Assembly: GCA_902779765.1 (NCBI GenBank)
Contig: CACZCQ010000009.1
Location: 17,967 to 81,966, forward strand
Reading direction: 5' to 3'
DNA: 64,000 bases
DNA from: an uncultured Bacteroidia bacterium
GTDB taxonomy: Bacteria; Bacteroidota; Bacteroidia; Bacteroidales; UBA932
Below the pieces are notes generated by a model, which saw nothing but the letters and a program-made list of their open reading frames with translations, was not told the DNA's origin and did no database searches. The first letter of the stretch is position 1. Each line of letters begins with the position of its first letter. This document shows, piece by piece, positions 39,464 through 39,897 of this stretch. The translations under genes were made by a program, and so were the position numbers.

Positions 39464-39496
39464 TTTGGGAGGATTCATGCTTTTTTACTACCTTTG
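39464..39496 (+). promoter_or_regulatory. Promoter of tRNA-Leu(UAA)
   Basis: TTTG (39464-39467) and TACCTTTG (39489-39496) separated by 21 bp, matching the Bacteroidota -33/-7 pattern, with the tRNA starting 24 bp after the box. Confidence 0.75.
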
Positions 39497-39519: not shown

Positions 39520-39838
39520 GCCTTGGTGGTGGAATGGTAGACACGAGGGACTTAAACAGATTTGAGTGCGCTTTCCGAAAGGAAAGATGTAGAATGTCGT
39601 AAATTCAAGGAAGCCTTAACGGGTCAGGCCGATGGTAATCTTGAGCCAAGCCTCCGGATGGAGGAAGGTGCAGAGACTAGACACGACACACCTAAAGATT
39701 GTTGATCCATGGTGAAGGAATAGTCCAGACTACAAACGGTCATTTCAGGCATATCGCCGGACCGGTGGTAAAAACCATAGTGGTAAGAAAATCCCTTGGC
39801 CCGAAACGGCCGTGCGGGTTCGAGTCCCGCCCGAGGCA
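39520..39838 (+). tRNA. tRNA-Leu(UAA) split by a group I intron
   Basis: Exons 39520-39553 and 39788-39838 join to an 85-nt leucine tRNA. The acceptor stem is GCCTTGG / CCGAGGC with one T-G pair and discriminator A39838. The D stem is GTG/CAC; the anticodon stem AGGGA/TCCCT encloses loop CTTAAAA with anticodon TAA. The long variable arm is GGCC/GGCC and the T arm GCGGG TTCGAGT CCCGC. The 3' CCA is not encoded. The gene is broken between positions 34 and 35 of the anticodon, so a tRNA finder that does not model this intron may miss it. Promoter and terminator are both present, so it is probably expressed as a single-gene unit. Confidence 0.93.
39554..39787 (+). ncRNA. Group I self-splicing intron in tRNA-Leu(UAA)
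   Basis: 234-nt intron inserted after the first anticodon base, the same site as the cyanobacterial and plastid trnL(UAA) intron. The 5' exon end ACTT can pair with GAGT at 39564-39567 (internal guide, with the diagnostic T-G at the splice site), and the intron ends in G39787. Core strings recall the IC3 introns: TCTTGAGCCAAGCC (about 39639-39652) and GTGCAGAGACTAGAC, later ATAGTCC. P2 is CTTTCC-GAAA-GGAAAG (39571-39586), a GNRA hairpin; TTCAAG (39604-39609) pairs with CTTGAG (39640-39645); P6-like CCTCC/GGAGG (39651-39664); P7 GACTA/TAGTC (39675-39679 / 39721-39725). There is no room for a homing endonuclease. Confidence 0.93.
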
Positions 39839-39844
39839 CTAATC

Positions 39845-39897
39845 AGACCTTGCAAGTTGTTGATTTATAAACACTTTGCAAGGTTTGTTTTTTTGTT
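39845..39897 (+). terminator. Terminator of tRNA-Leu
   Basis: A hairpin with a 9-bp core stem ACCTTGCAA (39847-39855) / TTGCAAGGT (39876-39884), extended by further pairs into the loop, followed by TTGTTTTTTTG. Confidence 0.85.

Follow-up and report, generated by a model that had tools for sequence, protein, structure and literature searches.

Introduction

Among bacterial introns, the group I intron of tRNA-Leu(UAA) is the textbook example of an old one, and it typically comes without an endonuclease. We know of no endonuclease in the cyanobacterial tRNA-Leu introns, for which papers by Rudi and Jakobsen are said to have proposed horizontal transfer and a polyphyletic origin. A cyanobacterial tRNA-fMet intron with an anticodon-specific endonuclease of the PD-(D/E)XK fold was reportedly described by Bonocora and Shub in 2001. 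Putative group I introns have been recorded in tRNA-Leu(TAA) and tRNA-Arg(TCT) of Beggiatoaceae, in a paper that assigns them no type or structure (PMC4853749). For crAss-like and Jug phages, two papers describe group I introns and endonucleases, the described cases lying in protein genes (PMC7886860, PMC12363816), and a 2014 review gives phage group I introns as known in protein genes only (PMC3984707). Our literature search, with subscription journals largely outside its reach, found, among the papers listed and as judged by title and abstract, no published Bacteroidota case of such introns, no published Cryptobacteroides intron and no published phage tRNA intron of the group I type. Group I introns of tRNA-Leu(UAA) are known; a mobile form bearing an HNH gene was not found in that search.

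Here we describe a group I intron in a 64-kb stretch of DNA (the window) whose host genus we took as Candidatus Cryptobacteroides, Bacteroidales. Judging from sequence comparisons, the intron very likely belongs to a family of group I introns that home to tRNA-Leu(UAA) and are common to phages and Bacteroidota, and the window copy would have lost its endonuclease.

Results

A split tRNA-Leu(UAA) gene in the window

The tRNA-Leu(UAA) gene was located at 39520-39838 on the plus strand and is interrupted by a group I intron of 234 nt, inserted between U34 and A35. This is the insertion position known in cyanobacteria and plastids. Using ARAGORN and direct reading of the sequence, the 5' exon was placed at 39520-39553 with U34 as its last base and the 3' exon at 39788-39838 with A35 as its first, both on the plus strand as is the intron between them (39554-39787), in which there is no endonuclease gene. 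The exons of 34 and 51 nt together form an 85-nt leucine tRNA with the anticodon UAA, with CTT joined to AAAATCCC at the predicted exon junction after splicing. With its intron option ARAGORN called the same DNA (locus L001) as tRNA-Leu (taa) with a 234-nt intron, placing the 3' end one base further on (+1), and without that option it called 0 tRNAs in the 64-kb window.

The covariance model RF00028 matched 39544-39749 using cmscan, scoring 51.8 bits (E = 2.8e-10), just 1.8 bits over the gathering score of 50. This was the sole Rfam match above threshold in the 64 kb, and the window intron was the sole RF00028 match in the 2.48-Mb genome. A custom model of the intron family, R1, scored the window intron at 170.9 bits, the window being one row of the set from which R1 was built. 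An earlier note, made from the letters alone, had proposed a group I intron in the tRNA-Leu(UAA) gene of a Bacteroidota genome, 234 nt long and placed between U34 and A35 as in cyanobacteria and plastids, with exons forming a complete 85-nt leucine tRNA. The RF00028 match over the gathering score, the check which that note had named, together with the ARAGORN call and a fold shared by 99 introns, bears out all of these points.

Upstream of the gene a promoter-like pair of the Bacteroidota kind, following what we take to be the consensus of that phylum, was read at 39464-39496 on the plus strand (TTTG at 39464-39467 and TACCTTTG at 39489-39496), and a terminator-like hairpin with a T run was read downstream at 39847-39895 on the same strand. 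As read from the sequence, the pair and the hairpin would bracket tRNA-Leu(UAA) as a single-gene transcript.

Fold and splice sites of the intron

The introns of 98 distinct relatives were aligned with the window intron to give 99 rows. A 50-pair group I fold with 12 helices, P7 included, was paired in 97.0% of cells over the 99 introns and in 31-40% of cells when the partner was slid by 1-3 columns, a comparison in which the fold is favoured over the slid controls, having been drawn from one of the 99 rows. Changes on both sides were found at 21 pairs as compared to a shuffled mean of 11.6, with 0 of 500 shuffles as high. Covariation thus supports a group I fold with the P3/P7 pseudoknot, chiefly at P2, P3, P6a, P8 and P9. 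P4, P5, P6 and P7 were near invariant over the 99 introns, which places them outside the reach of covariation.

All helices lie on the plus strand. P1 (39550-39567) is formed by ACTTAAA at 39550-39556 and TTTGAGT at 39561-39567, that is ACUUAAA and UUUGAGU in the RNA, with a U.G pair at the 5' splice site. Both this pair with its GAGT strand and the G that ends the intron (39787) had been predicted by the earlier note. The P2 hairpin, in which 4 of 6 pairs show two-sided changes, follows at 39571-39586. P3 (39596-39687) joins 39596-39600 with 39683-39687; it was 100% paired, and 2 of its 5 pairs show such changes. P4 (39605-39644) pairs 39605-39609 with 39640-39644 and encloses P5 and a 3-bp hairpin, P4 and P5 being invariant. 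The invariant P6 (39645-39647 with 39667-39669) and P6a, in which 4 of 4 pairs changed on both sides, occupy 39645-39669. P7 (39675-39725), the guanosine-binding helix of group I introns, pairs GACTA at 39675-39679 with TAGTC at 39721-39725 and was 99.8% paired and nearly invariant. P8 (39689-39714) pairs CACC at 39689-39692 with GGTG at 39711-39714 and continues into an inner helix that was 77.9% paired, and P9 (39730-39783) pairs CTAC at 39730-39733 with GTGG at 39780-39783, was 94.9% paired and is accompanied by a further hairpin. P5abc is absent from the window intron, with nothing past P5 but the 3-bp hairpin. The absence of P5abc and the short P9 fit the putative IC3 label.

Among the matches listed, 104 of 104 complete introns had ACTT before them, AAAATCC after them and a final G, an identity of sites that is partly built in as the 104 were drawn from 125 loci by exon-like patterns with few mismatches allowed. 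The 3' strand of P1 was TTGAGT in 103 of these 104 and ATGAGT in one. The 104 leave out 16 host loci without one exon by pattern (most of them cut off at that point by the end of the locus) and 5 viral loci with other exons, and they are a sample, not a census (at least 120 rows for the genome-collection pattern).

HNH genes in P1 and their decay

The loop of P1 separated the 104 introns among the matches listed into four classes: 27 with a long HNH frame, 7 with a broken HNH frame, 9 with another insert or remnant, and 61 mini introns, the window's included, with a P1 loop of at most 25 nt. The long HNH frames encode 183-209 residues. In at least one of these 27 'intact' frames, that of L050, the N-terminus is unlike those of its neighbours in a way that a frameshift would produce. 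The HNH protein matched Pfam HNH (1.4e-5) and PHROG 10822 (4.3e-47), and a search of solved structures gave no close relative, with one chain at E = 0.12. Over the 27 HNH genes mean pS was 0.81 and mean pN 0.21, and dN/dS was 0.09 over 5 unsaturated pairs, the only ones among 351. The long HNH genes are under purifying selection.

The HNH frame continues through the 3' strand of P1 into the ribozyme core. It ends after ..EPSL in 12 of 27 introns, and in a further 12 of the 27 it stops at the UAG of P7 with ..VKE as its last residues. The tail that overlaps the core varied less (pS 0.25, pN 0.08), as would be expected where the RNA is constrained. A promoter-like signal, TTTG-N19..21-TAnnTTT[GA], was found before the gene in 19 of the 27 long-HNH introns as compared to 10 of 5400 single-base shuffles.

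A second motif, [CT]TCTTTGA, was found near the 5' splice site in 26 of 27 long-HNH, 6 of 7 broken, 6 of 9 other and 0 of 61 mini introns among the matches listed. The motif resembles a boxA antitermination signal, a reading that was set aside, as in most non-mini introns (43 in all) the motif can pair with GGAAGAGC beside the 3' strand of P1. We prefer to read the motif as a putative P1 extension that would clamp the loop over the boxA reading. When own pairs were compared with swapped pairs over the 27 introns, the extension gave -11.49 and -11.50 kcal/mol respectively, own pairs being no better. In L023, L063, L080, L099 and L128 the P1 insert is of another kind, about 100-180 nt long with pairable ends, TTGACAAA with TTTGTCAA.

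No endonuclease gene was found in the window intron, so the window copy was filed as a stripped relative and not as a mobile intron itself. The introns closest to it by identity were L020 (94.4%), L267 (94.3%), and L092 and L053 (both 93.0%). In a tree of intron cores, which was built from 143 columns with many long branches and unsettled bootstrap and serves for broad grouping only, the window intron paired with L053, an intron with a long HNH frame, at a support of 87/86 (not starred). This kinship would be consistent with loss of the HNH gene in the lineage of the window intron.

Filled and empty sites in Bacteroidota

The earlier note had suggested looking for the same split gene in kindred Bacteroidales, and it is present in the host genus, where R1 matched 42 of 101 genomes. 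These comprised 34 full main-type introns (at least 154 bits), 3 partial and 5 weak matches; as R1 was built from the same intron family, high scores within the family are not independent. RF00028 by itself matched 14 of 37 genomes of the genus, the window's included, an undercount as compared to R1. An empty tRNA-Leu(UAA) site was found in 38 of the same 101 genomes, and neither intron nor empty site in 23 of 101, most genomes being metagenome bins. In two bins, G070 (L160, L176) and G105 (L169, L187), tRNA-Leu(UAA) occurs both with and without the intron, each form on its own contig, which could be either two copies per cell or a mixture of strains.

The five weak matches (G111, G021, G075, G079 and G062; L212-L216) proved to be a different ribozyme with the same exon ends, here called type B. 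ARAGORN named three of these loci Leu(UAA) and two Ser, and we read the Ser calls as a register slip. The intron of one type B locus, L214, holds an HNH gene of the same family as the main type. Beyond the genus, R1 matched 8 of 149 genomes in the host family, 5 of these in two other genera, and 3 of 393 genomes in the order, including the window's own and a phage-like contig with tRNA-Ile(UAU). In the phylum it matched 29 of 395 sampled genomes, the window's included. Some of the phylum loci that were read are tRNA-Leu(UAA), others are tRNA-Arg(UCU) and more. The tRNA-Arg(UCU) introns, of about 194-246 nt, were seen in other families of the phylum (L246, L247, L249, L256, L257, L258, L260 and L263).

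The window locus and locus L171 of G065, which is empty, align collinearly, with 840 bp upstream at 77.5% identity and the intron as a break between the exons. Of 30 genomes chosen for an rpoB tree, 26 were placed, the four left out (G019, G080, G088 and G099, all intron-bearing) being without rpoB. On this tree the intron-bearing G005 groups as sister to the empty G036 (100/100), and the relatives around the window's genome are empty. Presence of the intron needs at least 7 changes, of which the starred branches force at least 4. Shuffled labels gave a mean of 8.6 changes and 85-89 of 500 shuffles were as low, showing neither clear clustering nor clear scatter, so an older intron may have been lost repeatedly. 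Patchy presence at one site with sister genomes empty is the pattern of a mobile intron, and is compatible with losses alone.

Between L184 (G104) and L172 (G118), two genomes far apart by rpoB, the 520 bp directly after tRNA-Leu are 98% identical. These flanks look as if the 3' end of tRNA-Leu might serve as an integration site or lie in a conversion tract.

Kin in phages, viral contigs and plasmids

BLAST of the window gene matched a 735-kb phage, in which the locus (L015) is a mini intron in tRNA-Leu(UAA), and also nine Lak phages. In Prevotella phage Lak-B1 (L016, about 1326-2069) tRNA-Leu(UAA) seemingly carries one group I intron in the D loop and a second at the anticodon. Its D-loop intron scored 46.3 bits with R1, its anticodon intron is similar to type B (78% over 69 nt in the best stretch), and both need removal before a tRNA results. 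A 595-kb phage carries the same HNH family placed in the P6 region, not in P1.

Relatives of the HNH protein are encoded in 139 stretches of IMG/VR, of which 80 were kept. R1 matched 32 of these 80 viral loci, and in 24 of the 80 a split tRNA called by ARAGORN spans the HNH gene with a gap of 686-993 nt (19 distinct by exon ends). The exon ends were ACTT and AAAATC in 23 of the 24. ARAGORN named 17 of the 24 as Leu(UAA) and 7 as Ser, Phe or Stop, and we read these 7 calls as register slips. A search of viral sequences by pattern (at least 120 stretches) was discarded as mostly noise, with an R1 match in 8 of 80 loci at E up to 0.001; ARAGORN found 4 split tRNA-Leu(taa) on those 120 stretches.

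The main-type host HNH proteins form one clade (99) apart from the phage ones in a quick-method tree. The HNH proteins of the type B locus L214 and of L250, from another Bacteroidia family, fall outside this clade, that of L214 beside viral ones. Among the viral cores only L142 falls, weakly, within the host cores of the core tree; its core is 88.7% identical to that of host locus L027, and its HNH protein just 54% identical to that of L113. The tRNA-Leu intron of L142 (4816-5865, minus strand) has a single frame of 287 residues that runs through the core; the HNH domain lies in P1 and an additional stretch in P8.

Several further loci were recorded. The phage-like contig found in the order (L205, G355:C127), which has several tRNAs, bears a related intron at 1427-1713 in tRNA-Ile(UAU), in a CUU/A context like that of tRNA-Leu. 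A CAU-anticodon tRNA of a 348-kb Klebsiella phage (OU509535; L018, 1420-1721) is split by a 228-nt group I intron. In Synechococcus phage S-CRM01 (L211, 1352-2021) a free-standing gene of the same HNH family lies between tRNA-Leu(CAA) and a tRNA called Ile(UAU) by ARAGORN, with no R1 match there. A plasmid search gave 4 Bradyrhizobium records. On a Bradyrhizobium conjugative plasmid (CP094621; L019, 899-1189) tRNA-Leu(UAA) has a 204-nt group I intron, at which no gene is listed.

Homing or vertical inheritance

We weighed the homing element proposed above against an old tRNA-Leu(UAA) intron that is inherited vertically and often lost, and in which the HNH genes are phage-derived passengers that occasionally leave. 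Such an origin accords with the host-side clades in which main-type host introns and HNH proteins fall, with the stripped state of most introns (61 of 104 among the matches listed), and with rpoB label changes not clearly different from shuffles. Against it, type B, another ribozyme, occupies the same site in 5 of the 42 matched genomes, and HNH remnants (7 broken copies among the matches listed, and the relics L083 and L025) mark loss from HNH-bearing forms. The position of the window's genome among empty relatives and the like arrangement of the phage genes also argue against passengers in an inherited intron, and overall we consider this explanation unlikely.

The only tRNA-Leu(UAA) found in the genome

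A tRNA search of the whole genome gave 43 places, and ARAGORN named 44 distinct genes on those 43 loci. The leucine anticodons among the 44 were CAA, CAG, GAG and UAG, and no further tRNA-Leu(UAA) was among them (assembly 97.75% complete, 31 contigs). A pattern for an intact UAA site, with one mismatch allowed, was likewise not found in the window's genome. The earlier note had stated that a separate intact tRNA-Leu(UAA) with this copy unspliced would count against its reading, and the genome-wide search turned up no such gene.

In bacteria, UUA should be read by tRNA-Leu(UAA) alone. UUA makes up 20 of 1268 leucine codons in the 26 long ORFs of the window and occurs in 11 of the 26. As no second tRNA-Leu(UAA) was found, splicing should be essential for reading UUA, unless the assembly misses a gene copy. 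Such a missing copy would also be what allows the locus to be a tRNA pseudogene with a decayed, non-splicing intron, an explanation we regard as very improbable given that the core is intact and conserved, as are the splice sites and both exons, that the genome gave no other tRNA-Leu(UAA), and that the long ORFs use UUA 20 times. An artefact of assembly or binning, in which a phage contig was placed in a bacterial bin, is just as improbable: bins are incomplete and the intron contig of G355 is phage-like, but the window's upstream flank is collinear over 840 bp with empty chromosomal loci of sister genomes, and the split gene stands in place of the intact copy with 2 exceptions among the 42.

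Discussion

Under the homing interpretation that we prefer, the intron of the window would still splice as its fold predicts. In the first step a guanosine bound by P7 would attack 3' of U34, and in the second the freed U34 would attack after the G that ends the intron, so that the exons join to an 85-nt tRNA. The HNH enzyme of the relatives probably lets the intron jump between tRNA genes. It would be expected to cut an intron-free tRNA-Leu(UAA) at the anticodon loop, and repair of the cut site would copy the intron in. Phage tRNA-Leu(UAA) genes with the same HNH family and intron type are the likely pool of transfer partners. Once the site is filled the endonuclease would be superfluous and would decay, and decay after fixation would therefore leave copies that are broken, reduced to relics or stripped, the window's among the last of these.

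A wider proposal can be put forward tentatively, and we lean somewhat against it: tRNA-Leu(UAA) may be a general homing site of phages, from which HNH-armed introns could have entered Bacteroidota chromosomes at least 3 times (the main type, type B and the L250 lineage). If true, stripped and stable bacterial tRNA-Leu introns, perhaps supposedly ancient ones too, would be resting stages of a phage element.

One genus shows, at the same site, a selected HNH gene, stages of its decay and empty sites, and phage tRNA genes carry a like element. This makes it feasible to test by what route tRNA introns move, and whether those of tRNA-Leu are of ancient date or have been gained several times. There is also a consequence for annotation, as essential tRNA genes may go unseen in Cryptobacteroides genomes when ARAGORN is run without its intron option.

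Compared with known systems, the cyanobacterial tRNA-fMet intron is alike in being a tRNA intron with an endonuclease directed at the anticodon region; it differs in the tRNA and in the enzyme, which is reportedly of the PD-(D/E)XK fold whereas the window's family has HNH. The introns of Beggiatoaceae lie in the same tRNA gene and are also non-cyanobacterial, but they belong to Gammaproteobacteria (PMC4853749). The introns of crAss-like and Jug phages likewise combine group I ribozymes with HNH in phages of Bacteroidota, but the cases described there are in protein genes (PMC7886860, PMC12363816). The tRNA-Leu(UAA) introns of cyanobacteria and plastids (treated in PMC5733544) share with the window intron the gene, the U34/A35 site, the U.G pair in P1, a small core without P5abc, and a length of about 200-250 nt when stripped. 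Unlike the cyanobacterial tRNA-Leu introns, this family has Bacteroidota and phages as its hosts, and relatives of the window intron carry an HNH gene in P1.
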